Positions 1 through 27,599 of a stretch of 64,000 nt of DNA are shown here, in pieces. Position 1 is the first letter of the stretch. Each line of letters begins with the position of its first letter. The notes under the pieces are model-generated. The model saw only the letters and a program-made list of their open reading frames with translations, was not told the DNA's origin and did no database searches. A program made the translations under genes and the position numbers. Location of the stretch: positions 1-64,000 of the forward strand of contig JAGBDV010000007.1 of NCBI GenBank assembly GCA_017937305.1, read 5' to 3'. The DNA comes from Bacilli bacterium. GTDB taxonomy: Bacteria; Bacillota_I; Bacilli_A; ML615J-28; CAG-313.

Positions 1-3000
1 CCTGAAGTTGGAAGCGTAACTTATAGTGCTCTTCCTGAAAATGTGTATGTTGGAGATAAATTCTCAATTACACATGAAGCTGGAAGTGATGTAACAGTAA
101 GTTATGAAGTATCTAACGCTGAAGTTCTTTCTGTTGATGGAAATAACTTTGAAGCTAAAGCTGCAGGATCAGCAAAAATTACTGCAACTGCAACTAATGG
201 TTATAAAGAAGTTAAACAAGAATGGAATGTTGAAGTTTTCCAAGGTGAATATACAATCACTTATGAATTAAATGGTGGTAAGAATGCATCAAGCAACCCT
301 GCTAAATATGATGTAAGAAATCTTCCACTTGCAATTGCAGCTGCAACAAAAGCAAATAAAGAATTCTTAGGTTGGAGCTTAGTTGAAGGTTCAACAGAAT
401 ATGTAACTGAAATTGCTGCTGGTCAAACTGGTAATATTACATTATATGCTAACTTTGCAGATATCAAACATGCAATTACATATGAACTTGATGGTGGTAC
501 TTTAGGTGCTAAGTCTCCAGTTGAATATGTACAAGGTGAAGAAACTCAACTTGTTAATCCTACTAAAGATGGTTATACATTCCTAGGTTGGTCTACAGTT
601 GAAGGATCTACTACATATATTACTAAGATTGCGAGTTCACTTAAAGCTGATGTTAAATTATATGCAAACTGGGAAAAGATTCCTGTATTCTCTAATATCG
701 TTTACCATTTAGATGGTGGTACAAATCCTAGTAATGCACAAGATAAATATCAAGAAGGTACTTGTTATATTCTTCCAATTCCTACAAAAGAAGGTTACCA
801 ATTTGTAGGTTGGACTAAAGTTCTTCAATCTATTGATTATATTACTCAAATTTGTGAAAACACATTTGGTGAAGTTGAACTATATGCACATTGGATGAAA
901 CTTCCTGTTAAACATGCAATTACATATGAATTAAATGGTGGTACAAATCCTGAAGGTGCTGCAACTGAATTTGAAGAAGGTATTGCATACACTCTTCCAG
1001 TTCCAACAAAAGAAGGTTATGAATTCCTAGGTTGGACAAAAGAAGCTGAATCAACTAACTATATTACTGAAATTAGTGCTAGTGAAACAGCTGAAGTTAA
1101 AGTTTATGCTCAATGGAAACAAAAAGAACAACAAGGTGAAATTGAAGGTGCTGTTTATGTAGGTGCTGGTTTAGATTATGCTACACTTGATGAAGCAGTT
1201 GCTGGTGCTCCTGAAGGTTCTAAGATTATTCTTGCTGCTGGTGAATATGCATTAACTATTGTAGTAGCTAAGAATCTTGAAATTGTTGGTCCTAATGCTG
1301 ATTTAGCTGTTTCAGAATTTGGTGAAGCTGAAGCACTTATCGCTGTAGCAAAAGATGTTGCTGGTAACATTGCTGCTGCTAATGTTGTATTTAACGGTGT
1401 TCACTTAAAAGGTACTGGTGGTGGCGGAGGAGTTCCAGGTGTATTCTTCCAAGATGGTGGAAATATTGAAACATTAACATTTAAGAGTTGTGTTGTTTCT
1501 GATATGAATACATTTGTTAAATTCCGTGATGCTACTTCTAAATCTACAGTAATTATTGAAAACTCTCATTTACATACTATTGGTCAATTTATGGTTTGGG
1601 TACAAGACGCACAAACACAAAAAGTTGTTTTAAGAAGCAATTTAATTGATGCATCAAATTGTGGTGCTGTTACTAATACTGCTGCAGCATTATTTAGAGT
1701 TCGCTCTGGTTCACTAGAAGCTTATGATAACTTATTTGTTGGTGATTCATTAAATGCTCCTGGTTACTTTGAATTATCTGCTGCTGATGGTAACTCAATT
1801 GTTAAATATAATACATTTGATGGTGTTACTAAATATTTATACACTTCAAAAGATAATAATGCTGTATTTGATGAAAACTTATACTTAGATTTCAATGGTA
1901 ATCCAATGGCTGCTGTTCCAAGTGAACTTACAGCTAATGGTTTAACTGTTGATGTTACTGTATGTTTAAGTGAAGAAGATAGAGCTAATCGTTATAATAA
2001 ACAATTATTAGAAATCTATCCTGATCGTTATTTTAAAGTTACTTATGAATTAAATGGTGGTGAAATCACTTCTACTTATCCACAAGTTTATGACAAAGAA
2101 TCTGGTATTGCAAATCTTCCAACAATTGAACGTGAAGGTTACTTGTTCCTTGGTTGGTATTTAAATGGTGAAGAAGTTGAAAATGTACCTGCTGGATTAA
2201 CTGGTGCTATTAATCTTGTTGCAAAATGGAGAGAACCTGCATTAGTTGTAGATGGAACAACTGAAGAAGGTCACTATGAAAATCTAGCTGCTGCACTTGC
2301 AGTTGTTAAAGAAGGCGAAACAATTAAACTTGTTGCTGGTGAATATGTTGGTGATGTTACAATTGATGTTGCTAATATTAAGATTGTTGGTCCTAATGCT
2401 GGTATTAATGCTAACAATGGTACAAGAGTTGCTGAAGCTGTTATTAAAGGTGTATTTAATGTAACTTCAAAAGCTCAAAACTTAACTATTGATGGTTTAT
2501 CATTTACTGGTGCTGCTAAAGTTGTTTATGCTGAAAGTACAAATTATAAAGGATTTGTATTCCAAAACAATAAAGTTTATGATACTGCTGATTCTGCAAA
2601 ACCTTGGGATGAATCAAGATATGCTCTTCCTGGCTTCCTACAATTCACAATGGCAAGCGGTGGTGTTTTAAGTAATGTTCAAATTTATAATAACAGTTTC
2701 GCAAATGTATCAGAAGTTAACGTTCTTGCAAATAGAGTTGCTAACTTAACAGTTGATGGTAACGTATTTAAAGACTTTGATTTAGATGCAGTTAGAACTG
2801 AAGGTGGTTACTGTTATGGTGTATTAGCATTTACTAATAACGTATTTGAACAAACTACTTTAGGTAATGGTAATAGTGGTATCTTCTTATATTCAAATGC
2901 TGGTGCATCTGGTTCTAATACAAACATTGTTATTAAGAATAATACATTTACTAAATTAGGTAAAGACAATGGTACAGTATTTACTGCTGCTATTAATGCT

Positions 3001-5898
3001 TATAGATTCCAAGAAAACTATACAGTTTATGAAATTTCAAATAATATCTTTGATCATTGTTATGATTACTTATATTTAAGAAATAACGGTGGTAACGCAA
3101 CTAATTGGTTCTGTACAGTTGAAAACAACCAATTCTTAGGTTTACCTACAAACCAATATTATGGTTCATATAGAGGTAGTGATTCTGAATCTTCTAACCC
3201 TTCCTTAGCAGTATTTACTAAGAACTACTATGAAGATAATAGTGGTAACGTTATTACTGATTTAAGTCAATATGCATCTTACTTCAAACATATGGCATCA
3301 TATGGTGAAGCTTTAGCTGCTAAACCTGGTGAAGCTGTGGTTGCTCCTGTTGAATTCTGGACTATTTCTTATGAATTAAATGGTGGTTCAACTAGAGATT
3401 CATTCACTTATGAATATAATAGTTTAAATAATGCTCCAATTGCACTTCCTACATTATCACTTCCTAACCATAACTTTGATGGTTGGTTATTAAATGGTGA
3501 ATTAGTAAGTGAAATTCCTGCAAATACAAAAGGTAATTTAGTATTAGTTGCTGAATTTACTTTATTAGAAGGTGAGGTTTATACTATCGAATTCGTAACA
3601 AATAAAGAAAATGTAATTTGGCCTTCAAGAGCTGCTTTAGATCGTGAAGAAATCATTGCTGAATTATATAAAGATTTATATGAATGGGCACAAGGTAATG
3701 GTGAAACAAGAAGTTATGCTGATTACTCTGCTTATATTGATGAACAATTAAAAGCTTACAATGATATTAAATTACGTAATACAAAACTTGGTAATTATCC
3801 AGCTGAAGATGGAAGTACTGAATACTTCTTCAATGTTCCTAAGTATTATCAAAAATGGAATGAATTCTTTGCAGTATTCCATACAGCAATGTTAGCTGTT
3901 AATGCTGATCAAAGCTTCTATACTGATACTTATGCTACAATGGTAAGATTATATCAATTCGTTGCATGGTCAACAACTGGTCAAAACTACTTCTCAGGTT
4001 ACTTATCTAAGATGTGTAAAGCTGCTAAGATTCCTCAAGAAATCCCTACATCATATCGTGGTGGTCAAGTGCTTTCTTTACCTGCTATTTCTTTAGCAAA
4101 TGGTCTTGAATTCCTTGGTTGGTATGACAATGCTGAACTTACTGGTGATGCTATTACTTCTATTACTTCAATTGAATCTGGTAATAAAGTATACTATGCT
4201 AAATGGGCTGCTGAAGTTAAAGTAGAAACAGTTGAAATTAATAAGATTTCTGAATTATTACTATTCACAACTCATCAATTAGTATGGACATTAGCTCCTG
4301 CTAATGCTACTGATTTAACAGTTGAATTCTTCTCAAGTAATGAAGCTGTTGCAACTGTTAGTGCAAAAGGTTTAATTACTGCTTTAGCTAATGGTAAGAC
4401 AACTATTACAATGAAAGTTTATGGAAACCGTGAATTAGACGTTGTATTTGAAGTTGAAGTATTTGTTAATGATTACATTGATGGTTCTTATGAATCTGAA
4501 AGTTATGTTGTTATTGATGAAACTATTAAATTAAATGCTTCTGTAGTTAAGAAAGATGGTACAACTGGTGCTGTTAAATGGACTTCATTAAATCCTGAAA
4601 TTGCTACTGTTGATGCAAACGGTTTAGTTACTGCTATTAATGCTGGTATAGCTAAGATTGTTGCAGAAGATGCATCTAATCCTAACTTAAAACTAGAATT
4701 TGCTGTTGTTGTATTATCTGAACTTCCTGAAGACATTCTTGGTCTTGCAATTGACTCTCATGAAAGTAATACATTTACAAGATATGATCTAAATATCGGT
4801 TCTACTTATAATAAAGACATTCTTGGTAGTGTATCCAAATTATTAGGTAATAGCCCTCTTGTAAAAGATAATAAATATTATGAAGCTTCAAATCAATCTC
4901 CTGCTACTTATGGTACAATGGCATCTATCGAATTTATTACTGTTCACTATACTGGTAATATGGCTGCTGGTGCTGATGCTTCTGCAAACGCAAGTTACTT
5001 TGCAACTAACGGTACTACATCAATCCATTACACAACTGGTAATGATGGTGTATTCTACTGTATGGATGAATCAAAAGGTGCATGGCATGCAGGTGACTCT
5101 GGTGCTTTAGCACAAGTTGGTGAATTCAAATGGATTGCTACTGGTGTTCAAGCAGCTGCAGGTGATCCTCAATACCCTAACTTTACAATTTCTGATGACT
5201 TCTATTATGAAATTAATGGTAAGAAGACAACAGTTAAGATGCCTGACCCATGGGATTATAGTTCAAGAGGTACTAATCATACATTAAATGCTGATGGTAC
5301 AATTTCTTCTAATGCAGCTTATAAATCAACTGCATTCTCTAATAGAACTCCTGAATCATTTATTAATGATCAAGGTTTACCATTTATGATTAAAGATGGT
5401 CAATACTATATGGGTACTACTTGGTGGTGTTATACTCAAGTTTACGAAGGTCGTATTTGTGGTACTGGTGGTAACAGAAACTCTATCGGTATTGAATCAT
5501 GTGTAAACGAAGGTTCAGACCTATGGTGGACATGGCAAAAAACTGCTCAACTAGTTGCAGATATCATGGTAAGACAAAATCTTGATATTACAAGAGTTAG
5601 AGGACATCATTTCTTCTCAGGTAAGAACTGTCCTCAACCAATGCTTGAAAACGATCTAGAAATTTGGTATGAATTCTTAGAATTAGTTGAAGCAGAATAT
5701 GAACTTATTACTAAGTATGCTGGTTATGAAGTAGCTATTACTTCTAATAATCCTGACATCGTAGATAATAATGGTCGTGTTGTTAAACAACCTACTGAGA
5801 CTACATGTGTAACTTATACAATTACATTTACTAAAGATGGAGAATCTAAATCTATTACTTTAGCTTCAATGGTAAAAGGTTTATATGTAGATAGATAA
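1..5898 (+). CDS. Giant secreted multidomain N-acetylmuramoyl-L-alanine amidase (5' truncated by window)
   Basis: The frame is open from base 1, so the true start lies upstream; a GTG at 43 is only an internal valine. 1965 residues are visible. In order, by base position: a Big_2-like Ig domain (to about 240); four Listeria-Bacteroides (InlB B) repeats with the YELNGG...F.GW pattern (250-1110); a right-handed beta-helix domain (about 1150-2030); a fifth repeat (2035-2230); a second beta-helix (2245-3330); a sixth repeat (3355-3560); a seventh, split repeat (3580-4210); two Big_2 domains (4225-4470, 4500-4725); and an Amidase_2 domain (about 4740-5690). The amidase zinc ligands are plausible: His in VHYTG, His in GHHFF and Cys eight residues later in KNCPQP. 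A last Ig-like strand region ends the protein. No LPXTG sorting motif or C-terminal membrane segment is visible. It probably cuts the stem peptide from peptidoglycan outside the cell, while the helix and repeat domains may bind glycans or host surfaces (inference). Confidence 0.9.
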   Translation, partial: PEVGSVTYSALPENVYVGDKFSITHEAGSDVTVSYEVSNAEVLSVDGNNFEAKAAGSAKITATATNGYKEVKQEWNVEVFQGEYTITYELNGGKNASSNPAKYDVRNLPLAIAAATKANKEFLGWSLVEGSTEYVTEIAAGQTGNITLYANFADIKHAITYELDGGTLGAKSPVEYVQGEETQLVNPTKDGYTFLGWSTVEGSTTYITKIASSLKADVKLYANWEKIPVFSNIVYHLDGGTNPSNAQDKYQEGTCYILPIPTKEGYQFVGWTKVLQSIDYITQICENTFGEVELYAHWMKLPVKHAITYELNGGTNPEGAATEFEEGIAYTLPVPTKEGYEFLGWTKEAESTNYITEISASETAEVKVYAQWKQKEQQGEIEGAVYVGAGLDYATLDEAVAGAPEGSKIILAAGEYALTIVVAKNLEIVGPNADLAVSEFGEAEALIAVAKDVAGNIAAANVVFNGVHLKGTGGGGGVPGVFFQDGGNIETLTFKSCVVSDMNTFVKFRDATSKSTVIIENSHLHTIGQFMVWVQDAQTQKVVLRSNLIDASNCGAVTNTAAALFRVRSGSLEAYDNLFVGDSLNAPGYFELSAADGNSIVKYNTFDGVTKYLYTSKDNNAVFDENLYLDFNGNPMAAVPSELTANGLTVDVTVCLSEEDRANRYNKQLLEIYPDRYFKVTYELNGGEITSTYPQVYDKESGIANLPTIEREGYLFLGWYLNGEEVENVPAGLTGAINLVAKWREPALVVDGTTEEGHYENLAAALAVVKEGETIKLVAGEYVGDVTIDVANIKIVGPNAGINANNGTRVAEAVIKGVFNVTSKAQNLTIDGLSFTGAAKVVYAESTNYKGFVFQNNKVYDTADSAKPWDESRYALPGFLQFTMASGGVLSNVQIYNNSFANVSEVNVLANRVANLTVDGNVFKDFDLDAVRTEGGYCYGVLAFTNNVFEQTTLGNGNSGIFLYSNAGASGSNTNIVIKNNTFTKLGKDNGTVFTAAINAYRFQENYTVYEISNNIFDHCYDYLYLRNNGGNATNWFCTVENNQFLGLPTNQYYGSYRGSDSESSNPSLAVFTKNYYEDNSGNVITDLSQYASYFKHMASYGEALAAKPGEAVVAPVEFWTISYELNGGSTRDSFTYEYNSLNNAPIALPTLSLPNHNFDGWLLNGELVSEIPANTKGNLVLVAEFTLLEGEVYTIEFVTNKENVIWPSRAALDREEIIAELYKDLYEWAQGNGETRSYADYSAYIDEQLKAYNDIKLRNTKLGNYPAEDGSTEYFFNVPKYYQKWNEFFAVFHTAMLAVNADQSFYTDTYATMVRLYQFVAWSTTGQNYFSGYLSKMCKAAKIPQEIPTSYRGGQVLSLPAISLANGLEFLGWYDNAELTGDAITSITSIESGNKVYYAKWAAEVKVETVEINKISELLLFTTHQLVWTLAPANATDLTVEFFSSNEAVATVSAKGLITALANGKTTITMKVYGNRELDVVFEVEVFVNDYIDGSYESESYVVIDETIKLNASVVKKDGTTGAVKWTSLNPEIATVDANGLVTAINAGIAKIVAEDASNPNLKLEFAVVVLSELPEDILGLAIDSHESNTFTRYDLNIGSTYNKDILGSVSKLLGNSPLVKDNKYYEASNQSPATYGTMASIEFITVHYTGNMAAGADASANASYFATNGTTSIHYTTGNDGVFYCMDESKGAWHAGDSGALAQVGEFKWIATGVQAAAGDPQYPNFTISDDFYYEINGKKTTVKMPDPWDYSSRGTNHTLNADGTISSNAAYKSTAFSNRTPESFINDQGLPFMIKDGQYYMGTTWWCYTQVYEGRICGTGGNRNSIGIESCVNEGSDLWWTWQKTAQLVADIMVRQNLDITRVRGHHFFSGKNCPQPMLENDLEIWYEFLELVEAEYELITKYAGYEVAITSNNPDIVDNNGRVVKQPTETTCVTYTITFTKDGESKSITLASMVKGLYVDR

Positions 5899-12607: not shown

Positions 12608-13870
12608 ATGAAAAAACAAAAAGAATTTGAACTTCACAAGAAGATTAAGGGCCCAAAATGGTTTTTAAGACCTATTGAAATGGTTGGAGCATGGATATTT
12701 GCAGGACCATTTGGTACAAGAACAAAAATAAAGAAAATTAATTGTGAAGGATTAAAAGGGCCTTTTATCCTTTTGTCTAATCATGCTAGTTTTGTTGACT
12801 TTGCAAATGTTATTAAGTCTGGTTATACAAAGAAATATTGTTGGGTTACTTCTATTGAAGAATTTAATGGTCGTGAATGGTTATTAAGAGGAGTTGGATG
12901 TATTCCAAAACGTAAGTTTACAAAAGATACAATTTTAATTAGAAATTGTTATAAGGCTTTACACCAATTAAAATGTAATGTTGTTATATATCCTGAAGCA
13001 AGATTTGCGCTTGCAGGTATTAATGAAGATATTGGTAAAGCTTTAGGTAAGTTCGCAAAAGTATGTAAAGTTCCTGTTGTTGTTATGAATCAAAAAGGAA
13101 CGTTCCTACGTTCTCCTCAGTGGTGTAAACATCCTTATCGTAAAATTCAATGTGAACTTGATTATATTCAAGTAGTAACTAAAGAGGAAGTTTTAACTTT
13201 ATCTGCTGAAGAAATTCAAGAAAGAATTGAAGATGCTTTTATTTGGGATGATTATAAATGGCAATATGATAATAAGATTAAAATTACTGATAAAGATCGT
13301 GCAACTAACATTCATAAGATTTTATATAAATGCCCATGCTGTGGTGCTGAACAACAAACAATAAGTTATGATCATTTTGTAGAATGTAAGGCATGTTCAG
13401 CTAAATGGGATATGGATGTATATTCAAGAATGAATCTAACAAATGAAGATTTGACATGGGATTCTGCTCTTTCACATGTACCTTCTTGGTATAGATGGCA
13501 AAGAGATATGGTTGATCAAGAAGTAATGGAAGGAACATATCTATTTGAAGATAAAGTAAGAATTGAAAGACTAGTTAACTCTAAAAAAGGTTTTGTTAGA
13601 ATTGGAGAAGGTACTATGCGTCAAGATGAAAAAGGTATTTTAATAAAAGGTACTCTTGATGATGGTAGTGACTTTGAAGTATTTAAACCTGCTAATACTA
13701 CTGCTTCACTTCACATTGAATATAATTATAAAAAACGTGGTGATGCAATAGATATTGCGACAGAAGATAATACATATTTTGTATATCCACTTACTAATCC
13801 TAATGTTTTAACTAAATTACATTTTGCAACAGAAGCAATCTTTAGAAAAGCTACTGAAAAAGAAAAATAA
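12608..13870 (+). CDS. PlsC-type acyltransferase fused to a zinc-ribbon C-terminal half
   Basis: 420 residues. The first half is a 1-acylglycerol-3-phosphate acyltransferase domain with the HX4D motif (His59 to Asp64 in NHASFVDF) and a YPEARF version of the EGTR block near residue 134. The second half is unusual: CPCC and CKAC pairs near residues 240-265 form a zinc ribbon, and about 150 further residues of beta-rich sequence follow. There are no obvious membrane spans, so it probably acts at the inner face of the membrane in phospholipid synthesis. The zinc ribbon may serve in protein contacts or acyl-carrier recognition; this is inference. A TATAAT lies at 12564-12569 and AAAGG before the ATG. 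Confidence 0.82.
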   Translation: MKKQKEFELHKKIKGPKWFLRPIEMVGAWIFAGPFGTRTKIKKINCEGLKGPFILLSNHASFVDFANVIKSGYTKKYCWVTSIEEFNGREWLLRGVGCIPKRKFTKDTILIRNCYKALHQLKCNVVIYPEARFALAGINEDIGKALGKFAKVCKVPVVVMNQKGTFLRSPQWCKHPYRKIQCELDYIQVVTKEEVLTLSAEEIQERIEDAFIWDDYKWQYDNKIKITDKDRATNIHKILYKCPCCGAEQQTISYDHFVECKACSAKWDMDVYSRMNLTNEDLTWDSALSHVPSWYRWQRDMVDQEVMEGTYLFEDKVRIERLVNSKKGFVRIGEGTMRQDEKGILIKGTLDDGSDFEVFKPANTTASLHIEYNYKKRGDAIDIATEDNTYFVYPLTNPNVLTKLHFATEAIFRKATEKEK

Positions 13871-20770: not shown

Positions 20771-21322
20771 ATGGCAAGATCTAGTATGAACATGATTAGT
20801 TTAATGAATTATGCATGGGACCAAAGACAAAAAGTTGATGCTGATACTTATCAAGATCAATGTAGAAATCTACTTTCACACGCATACGCTGATTTAACAA
20901 ATATGTATGATAGTTATTGTAGAAGTGAAAATCTTAAGAATGATGATTTAATTTTCTATACATTCCAAGAAATTTTTGTAATGATTATGCTTAGTGATGA
21001 TGATTTCTTACAAGGAGAATATGATGCATATTGTAAATTCTGTAATTATGCTAATATTGAACCTTTAAGTGTTGCAGATTGTAGATCTTTATATAGTCGT
21101 ACGTCTGTTGATAAATTAGCAGAAAATATTAATTTCTTATCTAAACTTCGTGATTCTATCGACCCATCTAAATATGAAGCAATGGTTCTTGCATTCTGTT
21201 ATCTATGCTTACAAGGGGATAAAGCAATGGATGAAAATGAATATTATATTTTAAGATGTTTCTTTGAAGCAGGTTATGACTATGCTCCAAGTACTTGGCA
21301 ACAATTCAAGGACGAATGGTAA
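20771..21322 (+). CDS. Conserved-looking alpha-helical cytoplasmic protein, unknown
   Basis: 183 residues, soluble, almost entirely helical, with no signal peptide or membrane segment. The second half contains two acidic repeats of similar pattern (MLSDDDFLQGEYDAYCKFC near 77 and LQGDKAMDENEYYILRCFF near 143). This acidic-helix pattern is reminiscent of TerB-like folds, but the similarity is too weak to name a family. It contains seven cysteines, unusual for its size, without a CxxC arrangement. It has its own promoter and terminator, so it is a single-gene unit. Confidence 0.7.
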   Translation: MARSSMNMISLMNYAWDQRQKVDADTYQDQCRNLLSHAYADLTNMYDSYCRSENLKNDDLIFYTFQEIFVMIMLSDDDFLQGEYDAYCKFCNYANIEPLSVADCRSLYSRTSVDKLAENINFLSKLRDSIDPSKYEAMVLAFCYLCLQGDKAMDENEYYILRCFFEAGYDYAPSTWQQFKDEW

Positions 21323-21351
21323 AAGTTATTGCGATAAAAATTTAAAGGTGC

Positions 21352-21381
21352 ACTGTTATGAGTAATCATAACAGTTTTTTA
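21352..21381 (+). terminator. Intrinsic terminator
   Basis: The perfect 10-bp stem ACTGTTATGA/TCATAACAGT with a GTAA tetraloop is followed by a T tract. Confidence 0.9.
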
Positions 21382-21393
21382 TTATCCTTTTAA

Positions 21394-21422
21394 TTTACAA
21401 AATATTACAAAAGGTGTATAAT
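21394..21422 (+). promoter_or_regulatory. Strong SigA-type promoter of the cyclic-di-GMP pair
   Basis: TTTACA (21394-21399), exactly 17 bases, then TATAAT (21417-21422). The ATG at 21462 follows with GAGGAG at the right distance. Confidence 0.85.
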
Positions 21423-21461
21423 AAAACTGGAAAACTGTTTAGAGTTTTTGAGGAGTTTTAT

Positions 21462-24400
21462 ATGAATAGTAAAGAAAATATTATTAAAGTAGCAGTTCAA
21501 ATCATATCAAATAATGGGCTCAATTTCTCAATGGATGAACTAGCAAGTAAATTAAAAATGAGTAAACGTACTGTTTATGAACAAGTAAGTAGTAAAGAAA
21601 ACTTAGTAATAGAATGTATGGAAAGCTTAAAACAAAGTTTTGATACACACTATGAAGTAATTATTAAAAAAGATGATTTATGTTATTTAGATAAATTTGA
21701 AAGCTTAATTTCTTTCTTTGAACAAGAATGGTTTATGTCTAGAACTCATCGCATGCAAATAGCTAGGTCTAATGAGATTATAAATAATAAGATAGATGAA
21801 GTTAGAAACTATTGTTTAGATAAAGCATTTAATCTTCTTGAAGAAAATTATGAAGATAATTTAACTCTTGCTTATAATAAAGATGTATTCAAATCAATTT
21901 ATTTAAATACTTTAATCTCACTTGCTGAGGACTGTCGTTATGATAATTCAATTAACTTTAAAGAATCTAAGCAATTAATAATTTCAAATTTAATCAACGG
22001 TATTATATCTACTGATTCAAGGTTCTTTGGAGGTGTTTCATTACAAAGATTACTAAGTAGATCAAAAATGGGAATCATTGTTTTTAGATATTCTAATAGA
22101 TTTGAACCAATTTATATTAGCCCAGGATACAGTGAATTATTTGAAAAGATTAAAGACACTGACTCATTTTATAATGTAAATAAAAATAGCGAAATTGAAG
22201 AAAGTTTAAAATCTGTTTTAGCTGACAGAAAACATATAAGTTTTGATTGCGAACTTGAAAATAATGGTACAAAAATTTATTACTCCTTAAAAGCTTTACC
22301 TATTAAATGGCAATTATATAATGATGCTTATTTAGCTGTTGTTACTGATGTTACAGAAACAAAGAATCGTGAATTAAAACTTGAAATTAGTGAAAAGAAG
22401 TTTGATTTAGCTTTAAAACAAACTTCTGTGTATATTTGGGAATATAATTTTGAAAATCAAACATTAGTATTCTCAGACGCATTAAGAGAAATATATGATT
22501 TAAAAACTCCAATTATCACAAAAATTCCTGAATTTTTCTTTGGTAATCGTATTATTCATCCAGACTACAATCGTAAATTTGAAAAGTTCTATCGTGGAAT
22601 GAATAATGGTCAAAAAAGTGGTGAAAGTAAGATTAAGATGATTGATAAATTTGGAAATTACAAATTATTCAAGATTTCTTATAAGACTATTTTTGATAAA
22701 GATGAAAAGCCTAATACTGCAGTAGGTGTAGTTACCGCTGTTAATAATAATGTTGGGGTTGTAAGTAAGTTTGAACAAGAAGAGCAAATGATTTCACTTT
22801 TAAAGAATGAAATTACTTTTGGACTTCAATATAATATTAGCTCAGACAAAATTGAAAAAGTATTTGGTATGCATCCAATTGTAAATATGGTTTCTAGCGA
22901 GGCAACTTTTGAAAATATTAAAGATCTATTACTTTCATCTATTTCAAACGATGGTGATATAGCTGAAATGTCTAGACTACTTACAAAACAAACTTTATAT
23001 GATTTTGTAGATGAAAATAAACAATATTATTCTACATATATAAGAGTAAAAGATGTTAACGGTAATATAAGTTGGATGAATCTAATATTTAGATTTTTTG
23101 TTGAACCTTTTACTGGTGATGATCATTTATTTGCGTATTTACTTGATGCTGACCATAAACATAAGTTAGAATTAAGACTTCCTGAAAAGGTAGAATATGA
23201 TATAACTACAAAAGTATATGTTCAATCTACTTTTAAGCGCATGATGAACTTTGCAGTAAGTAATGAAGAAGATGTTGATAATGATTGTGCATTTATTATA
23301 ATTGAATGTATAAACTTACCTACTATTAAGATGCAATATGGTCTGGATGTAGCAGAAAAGCTTCTAGTTCATTTTAGTAGAGTTATTTCATTATGTTGTG
23401 CTAATCGATATATTGTTGGTGAGTTAGAAGATAGTCGTTTAGCTATATTTGTACCTAGAGCTGATAATTTACATGACTTAAGAAAGCGTGTTGAAGAAAT
23501 TGTTGCTTTAGCACATAATTCATATGTTTTGTCTGATAATGAAGAAAAGATTGCAAAAGTATTTTTCAGTATTTTTGTATCGTCGTTAGAACATGCTAAT
23601 TTTAATTATTTATATGATAAATGTTCAAAACAATTAGAAGCATTAAAGCTTCAAGAAGACGAAATCATTGATAGCGTAGATAACATCGATAGTTATGTTA
23701 ACTATACGAGCTATGATTATGATCAAGTTAGTGATCGTAATTATAATGATGATTCCAATCAAATTACAAGTTTAGTCACTACATTATATCAAGAAATTAT
23801 TAGTTATAAAGATTCTGATGATATTATTAATGAAACTTTAAGATTATTAAATTATTATTATAGTTCCTATAGATGTAGTGTGTTTACTTTAAGTTCCAAT
23901 AATGAATTAGTTAACTTGAAATATGAATTTACTGTAGGAGATGTTTTATCATTTGATAAAGTAACATTTGCTATAGACGAAATTCCTGGTTTATTATATG
24001 CATCTACAAGACAAGAGCCTATTGTTATTAAGACTAACTATTCACAAGATGAATTATTATATAATTATTATAAACGTTTAAGAGAGAATAATATTAGTTT
24101 ATTCTATGCAATTCCTTTAATTGAGAAAAATGAAACGATTGGTTTCTTAACTGTATCTAATGCAACAGATCATTTAGGTGAATTAACTCTTTTAAGAGTA
24201 TTTGCTCAAGTAATTAATAATGAGCTTGTTAAACAATCTTTAGTTGAAGATAAGCGTTTAAATAATGAAGTTGATTTTATTTCAAAACTTTATAATTATC
24301 ATTATTTTAGAAAAGTTATCGCAAGATATAAAAACTCTGCTTTATCAAGTTTAGGGGTAGCTTGTATTAAATTCAATGATTTACGACAAATTAATCTAGA

Positions 24401-25484
24401 TCATGGTGTTGAGTATGGTGATAGTATAATTATGCAAATTGCCGATATTCTAAGAGAACAATTTAGAATTGACTCTATTTTTAGAATTGATAGTGAAATT
24501 TTTGAAATAGTAGTTCCTGATATTGATTATGAAACTTTTATTAGTCGTTTTAATTTAACTGTAAATAGAATTAATCAAATTAAAAAAGGGTTAGTAAGTA
24601 CAGGTCATACCTGGACAGACACTGATATTGACATTGATAAATTAATTAATCATGCTGAAGAATTAATGATAATAAATAAAGATTCTAAGAGTGCTGCTGA
24701 AATATTTGATGCACAAGAAGATCATCTTGCAAACTTAAATGATGCATTAAATCGTAATTGGTTTACTTTCTTCTTACAACCAAAAGTTGATTTAAAGACA
24801 AATAAAGTTTCATGTTCTGAGTCTTTAGTTAGAATGATTCACCCAACTTATGGTGTAATTAGCCCAGCGAAGATTATTCCTATTCTAGAAAAGAATAAGA
24901 TGGTAAGTGTAGTTGACTTCTATATTCTTGAACTAGTATGTCAAACATTAAAGAGATGGAAAGAGGAAGGAAGAGTACTACTTCCGATTTCGGTTAACTA
25001 TTCACGTGTTACTTTATTAGAAAATGATATCGTAGAAAGAACAAAAGATGTTATTGAAAAATATGGTGTTGATAAATCTTTAATAGAAATAGAAATTACT
25101 GAAACAATCGGTAATATGGAACAAAAGAAAATTTCAGAAATTGCTGAAAAGTTTATTGCTGCAGGTGTTAATTTAGCGATCGATGACTTTGGTTCTAAGT
25201 ATTCTAGCTTATCAACATTATCAACAGTACCATTTAACGTAGTAAAAGTAGATAAATCAATTATTAATGATTTAGTAATAAACCCAAGATCACAAATCAT
25301 TGTTGAACAAATTATAAATATTTGTAAACAACTTAATATGAAATCTGTTGCAGAAGGTATTGAAACTGAACGTCAATGGAAAGAAGTTAAGCGATTAGGA
25401 TTTGATTTAGGTCAAGGCTATTTCTTTGAAAAGCCTATTTCAATCAAAGAATTTGAAGAAAAATTTATGAAAGTGATGAAGTGA
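21462..25484 (+). CDS. TetR-type HTH / PAS / GAF / degenerate GGDEF / EAL fusion protein
   Basis: 1340 residues from the ATG at 21462 (GAGGAG upstream). Residues 1-190 look like a whole TetR unit: HTH with FSMDELASKLKMSKRTVYEQVSSKENLV near 22-50, then a helical ligand-type domain. PAS-like regions follow (about 190-300, 305-435, 440-590). A GGDEF-like domain reads ELEDSRL in place of the active site (about 590-740). A GAF-like domain (about 780-930) is followed by a second GGDEF-like domain with RIDSEIF in place of RxGGDEF (about 930-1080), and finally EAL (about 1090-1335). The EAL site looks complete: ESLVR, an Asn in SVNYS, EIEITE, DDFGSKYS, KVDKS, AEGIE and GQGYFF. It should hydrolyse cyclic-di-GMP, and the HTH may bind DNA. 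The intact cyclase gene follows after seven bases. No membrane segment is seen. Confidence 0.85.
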   Translation: MNSKENIIKVAVQIISNNGLNFSMDELASKLKMSKRTVYEQVSSKENLVIECMESLKQSFDTHYEVIIKKDDLCYLDKFESLISFFEQEWFMSRTHRMQIARSNEIINNKIDEVRNYCLDKAFNLLEENYEDNLTLAYNKDVFKSIYLNTLISLAEDCRYDNSINFKESKQLIISNLINGIISTDSRFFGGVSLQRLLSRSKMGIIVFRYSNRFEPIYISPGYSELFEKIKDTDSFYNVNKNSEIEESLKSVLADRKHISFDCELENNGTKIYYSLKALPIKWQLYNDAYLAVVTDVTETKNRELKLEISEKKFDLALKQTSVYIWEYNFENQTLVFSDALREIYDLKTPIITKIPEFFFGNRIIHPDYNRKFEKFYRGMNNGQKSGESKIKMIDKFGNYKLFKISYKTIFDKDEKPNTAVGVVTAVNNNVGVVSKFEQEEQMISLLKNEITFGLQYNISSDKIEKVFGMHPIVNMVSSEATFENIKDLLLSSISNDGDIAEMSRLLTKQTLYDFVDENKQYYSTYIRVKDVNGNISWMNLIFRFFVEPFTGDDHLFAYLLDADHKHKLELRLPEKVEYDITTKVYVQSTFKRMMNFAVSNEEDVDNDCAFIIIECINLPTIKMQYGLDVAEKLLVHFSRVISLCCANRYIVGELEDSRLAIFVPRADNLHDLRKRVEEIVALAHNSYVLSDNEEKIAKVFFSIFVSSLEHANFNYLYDKCSKQLEALKLQEDEIIDSVDNIDSYVNYTSYDYDQVSDRNYNDDSNQITSLVTTLYQEIISYKDSDDIINETLRLLNYYYSSYRCSVFTLSSNNELVNLKYEFTVGDVLSFDKVTFAIDEIPGLLYASTRQEPIVIKTNYSQDELLYNYYKRLRENNISLFYAIPLIEKNETIGFLTVSNATDHLGELTLLRVFAQVINNELVKQSLVEDKRLNNEVDFISKLYNYHYFRKVIARYKNSALSSLGVACIKFNDLRQINLDHGVEYGDSIIMQIADILREQFRIDSIFRIDSEIFEIVVPDIDYETFISRFNLTVNRINQIKKGLVSTGHTWTDTDIDIDKLINHAEELMIINKDSKSAAEIFDAQEDHLANLNDALNRNWFTFFLQPKVDLKTNKVSCSESLVRMIHPTYGVISPAKIIPILEKNKMVSVVDFYILELVCQTLKRWKEEGRVLLPISVNYSRVTLLENDIVERTKDVIEKYGVDKSLIEIEITETIGNMEQKKISEIAEKFIAAGVNLAIDDFGSKYSSLSTLSTVPFNVVKVDKSIINDLVINPRSQIIVEQIINICKQLNMKSVAEGIETERQWKEVKRLGFDLGQGYFFEKPISIKEFEEKFMKVMK

Positions 25485-25491
25485 TAGTATT

Positions 25492-27189
25492 ATGAAAAAG
25501 ACAAAAAATTTTTATAGTATTGCAATTATCTTTTGTATAATTATCTTTGCAGCATTAATTGTTGCTGTTGGGATGCTTACAAGACCTGATAACCATTCTA
25601 CAACTAAATTTACAGAACCTATTGAGTTAAAAACAAACTGGTATATTGATATGGAAAATGATGAAGATATTCTTTGGGAATCTTTACCATATTACAATGA
25701 ACTTCGTCAAGATGTATTTAAAGTTTATAATTATCTTCCAAATGATTTATCTGATACGACATGTATTTTCTTAAAAACAAATTTCCAGTCAGTTATGGTT
25801 GAAATTGAAGGATTTGGTGTCATTTATAATGAGCTTAATGATGATCAAGAATTGATGGGCGAAAGAATTGAAGTATTAACTCATATAATTGAACTAAAAG
25901 ATGCATACGCTGGTAAAAAAATTACTGTGATTTCAGAAAACGTTGCTAAGTATCAATACCCAATTTTAGAAGAAGTTTTAATTGGTGAAAAAGGTGATGT
26001 ATTATTAAATATTTTATCTGGCACCGTAGTTTCTTTGTACTTTATCGCACTAACTGCTATTTTAGGCCTTGCTTTAATAATTATTGGTATTTTATTAGTA
26101 ATTAATAAATCAACAAAGTATATTGCAGACTGTTTATGTTTAGCTATATTTACATTACTTTTTGATGCATGGCTAATTTGTAATATAAGTGAAATACAAT
26201 GTCTAATTAATGATAAAGCAACTTTATATTCAATTTATACATTTACGCTTTATACAGTATTGTTGCCAATCTTTATTTTGCTTAGAAATAAATGTACATC
26301 GTTTACTAAACTTTATGATTCTTTATTTATTATTAATGTTTTAATAATGATTATTAACTTTATTCTTGCATCAACTACAAACTTTAAGTTATTGTCATCT
26401 AGTATAGTTTTACATATATTTTTAAGTGTTGCGATAATATTAATGTTATATACTGTATTTGTTGAGTATTTTAAACACAAAAACAAAACTATTTTATCAT
26501 TTTTAATATCTGGATCAATTTTCTTCTTCTGTGTAGGACTTACACTTGCAGCTTATTATTTCCCTAATATGAAGCTTGCAGTAATTGATTATGACTTCTT
26601 TGTAAAAATTGCATTTATAGTGTTCGTATTAATAAATGGTGTTACATATCTACAACAAGTTATACTTGCAAGTCTTAAGATGAGTGAATCAGCAATATAT
26701 CGTAAACTTGCATTTACTGATTTAATGACTAACTTAAATAACCGTAGTTCATTTGACCATTATTTAAATACACTAACAGAAGAAATGTTTGATTCCATTA
26801 GTATATTAGAAGTTGATATTGATGGATTAAAATTTGTTAATGATAATTTCGGTCATTCCGTTGGTGATGAAATGATTAAAAAGGTTGCATCAGAAATCAA
26901 AGAAGTATTTGGTGAATATGGAAAATGCTTTAGAATTGGTGGAGATGAATTTGAAATTATTATCTTAAATGAGAATAAATCATTTATTAATTTATTAATT
27001 GATCGATTTAAATCTAATATTGATAATATGACATTATCAAGTGGTTCTAAGGTATATGTTTCAATTGGGGCTACTTTTGATGATGGTATGTTATCAAAAC
27101 ATAAGTCTATTGCAAATTTAATTAATATAACTGACCGATTAATGTATGAGAATAAACATATTAATAAAATGAATAATCATCTAGAGTAG
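25492..27189 (+). CDS. Membrane diguanylate cyclase (GGDEF)
   Basis: 565 residues. An N-terminal membrane segment (about 8-30) is followed by an extracytoplasmic domain of about 130 residues, then seven hydrophobic segments (about 170-390, 7TMR-DISM-like) and a C-terminal GGDEF domain. The active site FRIGGDEFEII near residue 482 is intact, with the LDVDxxxFxxxND-like block EVDIDGLKFVNDNFGH before it. No RxxD inhibitory site is seen upstream of GGDEF, so product inhibition may be absent. It should make cyclic-di-GMP in response to an external or membrane signal. It is the second gene after the EAL fusion protein, so synthesis and breakdown are encoded together. Confidence 0.9.
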   Translation: MKKTKNFYSIAIIFCIIIFAALIVAVGMLTRPDNHSTTKFTEPIELKTNWYIDMENDEDILWESLPYYNELRQDVFKVYNYLPNDLSDTTCIFLKTNFQSVMVEIEGFGVIYNELNDDQELMGERIEVLTHIIELKDAYAGKKITVISENVAKYQYPILEEVLIGEKGDVLLNILSGTVVSLYFIALTAILGLALIIIGILLVINKSTKYIADCLCLAIFTLLFDAWLICNISEIQCLINDKATLYSIYTFTLYTVLLPIFILLRNKCTSFTKLYDSLFIINVLIMIINFILASTTNFKLLSSSIVLHIFLSVAIILMLYTVFVEYFKHKNKTILSFLISGSIFFFCVGLTLAAYYFPNMKLAVIDYDFFVKIAFIVFVLINGVTYLQQVILASLKMSESAIYRKLAFTDLMTNLNNRSSFDHYLNTLTEEMFDSISILEVDIDGLKFVNDNFGHSVGDEMIKKVASEIKEVFGEYGKCFRIGGDEFEIIILNENKSFINLLIDRFKSNIDNMTLSSGSKVYVSIGATFDDGMLSKHKSIANLINITDRLMYENKHINKMNNHLE

Positions 27190-27209
27190 TTTTCTACTCT
27201 AGATTTTTA
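27179..27209 (+). terminator. Terminator overlapping the cyclase stop codon
   Basis: ATCTAGAGTAG and CTACTCTAGAT form a perfect 11-bp stem with a TTTT loop and a T-rich tail. The TAG stop is part of the stem. Confidence 0.88.
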
Positions 27210-27284
27210 TTTTTTATTGCATATTAAGTGCTAAATGGAAAAAAAAGTTATATAATATTAGTAGTAAAATATTTAAAAAACATT

Positions 27285-27576
27285 GAAAAGAAGAGTAAGT
27301 AATTAATAATTTTATAGAGAGTCTTTGTTGGTGGAAATAAGATATTGAGTTATTACTGAACATGGTCTTGGAGTTGGATTGTCGATATTTAGGCTTTCCC
27401 GGGTGCTCCCGTTATCGAGATAGAGTTTACAACTTAAAGAAGAATATGCCACTATTCTTGTAACTTTAGGGATTGAACTTGATGAGGGTTAAATTGTGAG
27501 GTTTAACTAAAAAAAGGTGGTAACACGAAAGATTATTTTCGTCCTTTTATCTATAGAATAAAAGGACGTTTTTTTA
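27285..27576 (+). ncRNA. T-box leader (methionine specifier) controlling metNIQ
   Basis: This 390-base gap holds a T-box riboswitch. A GAGAG element (27317-27321) and a long stem I are followed by the specifier region GAAC-ATG-G with ATG at 27362-27364, then TTGGAG. The T-box core GGTGGTAACACG (27516-27527) has TGGT, which pairs with the ACCA end of a tRNA with discriminator A, as in tRNA-Met. The terminator stem CGTCCTTTTAT (27540-27550) with ATAAAAGGACG (27558-27568) is followed by seven T residues. Uncharged tRNA-Met would favour antitermination and turn on the transporter. TATAAT at 27251-27256 is the likely -10. Confidence 0.92.
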
Positions 27577-27599
27577 TTGAAAGGATGGTGAGCATACTC

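Follow-up and report, generated by a model that had tools for sequence, protein, structure and literature searches.

The window, a stretch of 64,000 nucleotides from a Bacilli bacterium, contains a gene (P0001, 21462..25484, on the forward strand, as are the domains, the partner gene and the promoter-like, ribosome-binding and terminator-like sites given below) whose predicted product of 1340 amino acids joins a TetR-class DNA-binding head to a sensory cyclic-di-GMP (c-di-GMP) phosphodiesterase. The order of domains along the chain is TetR, PAS, PAS, GGDEF, GAF, GGDEF and EAL, with both GGDEF domains degenerate. This TetR–EAL fusion is real and apparently rare. Its principle was known before; what P0001 adds is a head of the TetR class and a long sensory middle.

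The frame at 21462-25484 runs for 1340 codons without interruption. The mechanical open reading frame starts at a GTG at 21414, and the ATG at 21462 is the preferred start. A GAGGAG ribosome-binding site (21450..21455) lies 6 nt 5' of this ATG, which places the TetR helix-turn-helix (HTH) at the very N-terminus of P0001. Pfam reports TetR_N, PAS_3, GGDEF, GAF, GGDEF and EAL in this order, and because five domain families score above or near their cut-offs in a single frame, P0001 is no chance frame. The earlier note on this DNA had described an HTH at the N-terminus and a frame unbroken as far as the EAL domain, and both are borne out. Of the domain families that it named, TetR_N, GGDEF, GAF and EAL are recognised in the domain search, while PAS_3 falls slightly under its cut-off. 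It is very improbable that the fusion arose by an assembly or gene-calling error that joined separate TetR and phosphodiesterase genes. Such an artefact would fit a source genome that is a draft (72% complete, 25 contigs), the absence of the same fusion from any second genome and the presence of a different gene at the locus in congeners. It is opposed by the 4-kb single frame with its good ribosome-binding site, by a base composition that is uniform across the TetR/phosphodiesterase joint (G+C 25-27%), by flanks that are syntenic with two congeners, and by the first PAS domain, which is in frame with the TetR part.

The TetR_N HTH profile (PF00440) matches residues 7-52 (21480..21617) with 29.6 bits when the head is searched alone and 26.5 bits in the full chain, against a cut-off of 24, so that the TetR-type assignment made from the letters holds up in a profile search. 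The recognition helix has the usual pattern (SKRTVYEQVSSKENL). Stand-alone TetR proteins of 187 residues from the class align with residues 3-182 over the full length (E 5e-13 for one genome), and a phmmer comparison with solved structures matches the TetR part to AefR (3cdl, E 2e-4) and also to Lmo2088. Single-sequence structure predictions were poor (mean pLDDT 41.7 and 35.6); apart from a PAS-like fold, the HTH (pLDDT about 55-78) is their only usable part. In a model of low confidence, residues 45-182 consist solely of helices. By alignment, a complete TetR regulator of about 182 residues appears to precede the phosphodiesterase with its sensory domains, and the two meet near residue 185-200. 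P0001 resembles the TetR/AcrR repressors (PF00440) in what appears to be a complete TetR unit (residues 3-182), but stand-alone repressors are only about 190 residues long, whereas P0001 continues for about 1150 more.

The sensory middle probably opens with a PAS domain (residues about 200-310, 22059..22391), which is weak in Pfam (PAS_9/PAS_4, E 0.02) and matches PAS/LOV folds in a fold search (E about 5e-6, with a model of low confidence). The second PAS domain (PAS_3, residues 362-424, 22545..22733) scores 24.7 bits, slightly under the cut-off of 25.6, and residues 441-576 have no Pfam match. A GAF domain (residues 786-922, 23817..24227; 23.9 bits, cut-off 22.4) separates two GGDEF domains, GGDEF-1 at 23193..23657 and GGDEF-2 at 24270..24686; Pfam reports GGDEF in two stretches of P0001 with 72.7 bits (cut-off 23.8). 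The GG[D/E]EF active site is absent from both. When their motifs are read by alignment with three canonical GGDEFs of the source genome, LEDSR stands in its place in GGDEF-1 and DSEIF in GGDEF-2. Reading of their sequences shows no canonical RxxD I-site in either. Both GGDEF domains are expected to be inactive as cyclases.

The EAL domain (PF00563, E 3.6e-58) covers residues 1091-1325 (24732..25436). Alignment with solved EAL structures, including that of PdeL (7pk5, 4kie), finds the catalytic set complete, with E1120, N1179, E1211/E1214, D1241-D1242, K1262, E1298 and Q1318. The name-giving EAL motif reads ESL in P0001, and its DDFG motif is followed by SKYSS, which is common to the nearest relative, L087. 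With these residues kept, the domain is expected to be active as a phosphodiesterase. The contrast drawn earlier between two GGDEF domains with replaced active sites and an EAL domain with all of its residues is therefore confirmed by alignment, with ESL as the reading of the motif.

The stop codon of P0001 is followed after 7 nt by a partner gene, P0002 (25492..27189, 565 amino acids). The N-terminal half of its product has apparent membrane segments, read by eye, and no Pfam match; it is followed by a canonical GGDEF domain (26710..27168, by profile and alignment), in which the GG[D/E]EF active site is present as RIGGDEFE. P0002 is a putative membrane protein and a predicted diguanylate cyclase. 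A terminator-like hairpin with a 10-bp stem and a T run (21352..21375) closes the upstream transcript, and another (27179..27204) ends the two-gene unit; seven terminator-like sites occur in the 8-kb region, compared with 1.2 expected. A sigma-70-like promoter (21394..21422, TTTACA-17-TATAAT, 11/12) is the joint best match of the region, in a class of sites that is no commoner here than in shuffled sequence. Preceded by a promoter-like site of their own and flanked by terminator-like hairpins, P0001 and P0002 probably form a two-gene operon. A T-box leader (27274-27549) then precedes an ABC transporter unit that extends from 27585 onwards and that we take, from its sequence, to be of the metNIQ type.

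Directly after the -10 hexamer lies a dyad, AAAACT-GTTTAG-AGTTTT (21431..21448), in the natural place for a TetR operator. Statistically it does not stand out: 768 of 1000 dinucleotide shuffles give a dyad as good, and with at most one mismatch allowed the genome contains 33 matches, fewer than the 53 of the reversed control. Two other exact matches exist in the genome, both inside coding genes. Since the dyad is within chance, no operator is claimed for P0001.

The domains, the intact and dead motifs, the gene order, the promoter- and terminator-like sites and the variable presence of the pair in the genus are observed, and we infer DNA binding and its target, phosphodiesterase and cyclase activity, co-transcription, autoregulation, and the coupling between the two halves together with its sign. 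The best-supported reading, for and against which we see the balance as about even, makes P0001 a TetR-class 'trigger phosphodiesterase' of the PdeL kind, its state set by the binding and breakdown of c-di-GMP. The TetR unit would dimerise and bind DNA, most plausibly at the promoter in front of P0001 and P0002; for a TetR protein that heads its own operon, autoregulation would be the natural guess. The state of the EAL dimer, which would bind and hydrolyse c-di-GMP, would be set by PAS and GAF domains and by the two dead GGDEF domains acting as regulatory modules. The substrate-bound or free state of the EAL domain would be passed back along the chain and would alter the contact between TetR and DNA. 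The P0002 cyclase would refill the c-di-GMP pool, and the output of the promoter would come to depend on local c-di-GMP and on the sensed ligand. TetR and EAL modules both work as dimers, which makes such coupling plausible.

The trigger phosphodiesterase is favoured by a TetR_N match above cut-off in an apparently complete TetR unit with the usual recognition helix, and by two internal GGDEF domains that are probably dead next to a canonical one in a gene 7 nt away. The intact EAL catalytic set, the hairpins on both sides and the strong promoter-like site in front point the same way, as do the HTH–EAL precedent of PdeL and the other signs of c-di-GMP signalling in the genome. Against it, the dyad at 21431-21448 is within chance and unenriched in the genome, no orthologue with a TetR head was found, and the cyclase pairing is seen only here. 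The target of P0001 may lie elsewhere than at its own promoter. A fuller version, in which the TetR head autoregulates both the phosphodiesterase and a membrane cyclase, and synthesis, breakdown, sensing and promoter control form a self-contained switch in two adjacent genes, is tentative and in our view rather doubtful.

The chief rival explanation takes the TetR part as a dimerising, ligand-sensing input of an ordinary PAS/GAF phosphodiesterase, with no control of a promoter. Relatives from the order and the class have REC or PAS domains at the same place before GGDEF-EAL, so that input-domain swapping is the usual evolution of these proteins, and the dyad tests yielded no significant operator. 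Yet the HTH, including the recognition helix, is well kept in P0001, where decay would be expected if the ligand domain alone were used, and this explanation seems unlikely. Similarly unlikely is an arrangement lacking feedback between the halves, with TetR binding its own or other promoters and EAL lowering the pool, in which the fusion merely ties the amount or position of the enzyme to a DNA-bound protein. The TetR unit and the EAL domain each look complete and are separated by about 900 residues of PAS, GGDEF and GAF domains, and a tuned coupling has no conserved orthologue in its favour. On the other hand, sensory domains between the head and the enzyme, the dimeric nature of both ends and the precedent of PdeL favour coupling, as the trigger phosphodiesterase would have it.

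Enzymes of c-di-GMP turnover act mostly via separate effectors, and among fused cases only PdeL was found to be well tested. This E. coli protein (YahA) is a LuxR-type HTH–EAL protein that has been tested experimentally as a 'trigger phosphodiesterase'; it binds and activates its own promoter, with inhibition by high c-di-GMP (PMC5052742). P0001 likewise has an N-terminal HTH and an intact C-terminal EAL domain, and thus, by Pfam, the PdeL-type union of a DNA-binding domain and EAL in one chain. For PdeL, direct DNA binding has been reported together with control that depends on c-di-GMP and extends to its own promoter; the same is proposed for P0001. PdeL differs in its LuxR-class HTH, its length of about 360 residues and the absence of PAS, GAF or GGDEF domains in between; moreover, no adjacent cyclase gene is described for it (PMC5052742), whereas P0001 has P0002 next door. 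The E. coli PdeR-DgcM-MlrA switch consists of a trigger phosphodiesterase, a cyclase and a separate transcription factor (PMC5052742). It resembles P0001/P0002 as a local module of phosphodiesterase, cyclase and DNA-binding protein, but MlrA is a separate chain, whereas P0001 carries the DNA-binding part and the phosphodiesterase together and leaves the cyclase to the next gene. LtmA of Mycobacterium smegmatis is a TetR-type c-di-GMP receptor (PMC12564702). It shares the TetR-class DNA-binding domain with P0001, and LtmA responds to c-di-GMP, as is proposed for P0001. LtmA is a free-standing regulator that binds c-di-GMP and is not known to have an EAL or GGDEF domain, whereas the TetR unit of P0001 is fused to an EAL chain.

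GGDEF, EAL and HD-GYP domains occur in thousands of architectures (census, PMC8846402), and a TetR combination in public databases would therefore be unsurprising. The literature found, mostly represented by titles, abstracts and hit counts, does not describe TetR joined to EAL. The novelty suggested in the earlier note thus stands for the exact architecture, which was met with in none of the other genomes sampled from the class and in no paper found, but not for the HTH–EAL principle, which is known from PdeL. Its 'trigger enzyme' reading also fits and is strengthened by the predicted cyclase downstream, but here too the principle was already known (PMC5052742). If the reading is true, a TetR-headed phosphodiesterase beside its predicted cyclase would mean that trigger enzymes have emerged with another HTH class, too, in a lineage far from E. 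coli, and the gene pair would be a compact natural module for tests of bistability in second-messenger switches. Since TetR operators are short and selection finds them easily, the question can be tested directly.

In two congeneric genomes (G011 and G012), the flanking genes stand in the same order with 70-97% identity, and the P0001 locus is taken up by a single unrelated gene, whose product of about 1600 residues has repeat, Big_2 and amidase domains. Neither congener has a match to P0001 (G011 is 97% complete). Because the locus holds another gene and G011 lacks a match, the P0001/P0002 pair is a variable piece of the genus. The variable locus corresponds to 20771-27585 in the window and to L067:7317-13298 and L068 in the congeners, and the 1600-residue surface protein of the congeners is related (35%) to the product of the window's own gene at 43-5898.

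Relatives of the EAL part were found, but none with a TetR head in the genus, family, order or about 395 genomes of the class, in a sample that covers the class of the source genome, with Clostridia and other classes outside it, and by a BLAST-type search that may miss a very divergent TetR head. Genome contigs, viral contigs and plasmids also contained no TetR-headed orthologue; the genome contigs gave two partial matches to P0001, the nearer of which (L017) lacks TetR. Among the genomes listed for a phylum-level sample, all belonged to this same class. No TetR head was seen in the long relatives (frames of 890 to 2357 residues), which were judged by N-terminal sequence or Pfam and of which a few are cut at the end of their stretch. 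In keeping with the unusual character that had been ascribed to the fusion, none of the other class genomes sampled shares its exact architecture. Distant relatives of P0002 stand alone in other genomes, and within the class sample both the TetR fusion and the cyclase pairing are seen only in the source genome.

The C-terminal 760 residues of P0001 are closest to L087 and L088, multi-PAS GGDEF/EAL proteins of 1710-1712 amino acids from one other family of the class, with 33-34% identity in the best stretch. L087 resembles P0001 in its degenerate first GGDEF (MEDGT in L087), second GGDEF and EAL, and the two EAL domains have the stretches DDFGSKYSS and SRVTLLE in common. In contrast, the N-terminus of L087 and L088 consists of PAS and additional GGDEF domains without TetR. 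The next closest relatives are proteins of 884-903 residues from another family. A conserved GGDEF-X-GGDEF-EAL protein of this length, with an intact first GGDEF, is found in L089, L090, L092 and L093; in several genomes of one family, its gene has a neighbour of the mnmG type. L021 and L022 are frames of 1541 and 1806 amino acids with the EAL domain well before the C-terminal end; L022 has a receiver domain at the protein start and PAS domains after EAL.

Elsewhere, the genome looks like that of a working c-di-GMP cell, judging by its predicted proteins and RNA elements. Its predicted enzymes comprise three proteins with a canonical GGDEF and, P0001 included, two whose EAL motifs are intact; a third EAL (C22) is degenerate. 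At 72% completeness, the genome may hold further c-di-GMP enzymes. No PilZ effector was matched in the genome. Two c-di-GMP-I riboswitches (G000:C22; L081:3759-3838 and 13652-13732) each stand before an operon. From their sequences, we take the products of these operons to be TasA/camelysin-like fibre proteins and signal peptidases, and the two riboswitch-led units are likely c-di-GMP-controlled matrix-fibre operons. Lowered c-di-GMP would plausibly act on the expression of matrix fibres. The first riboswitch in C22 follows a GGDEF-EAL protein whose EAL is degenerate (AVDGFSF).
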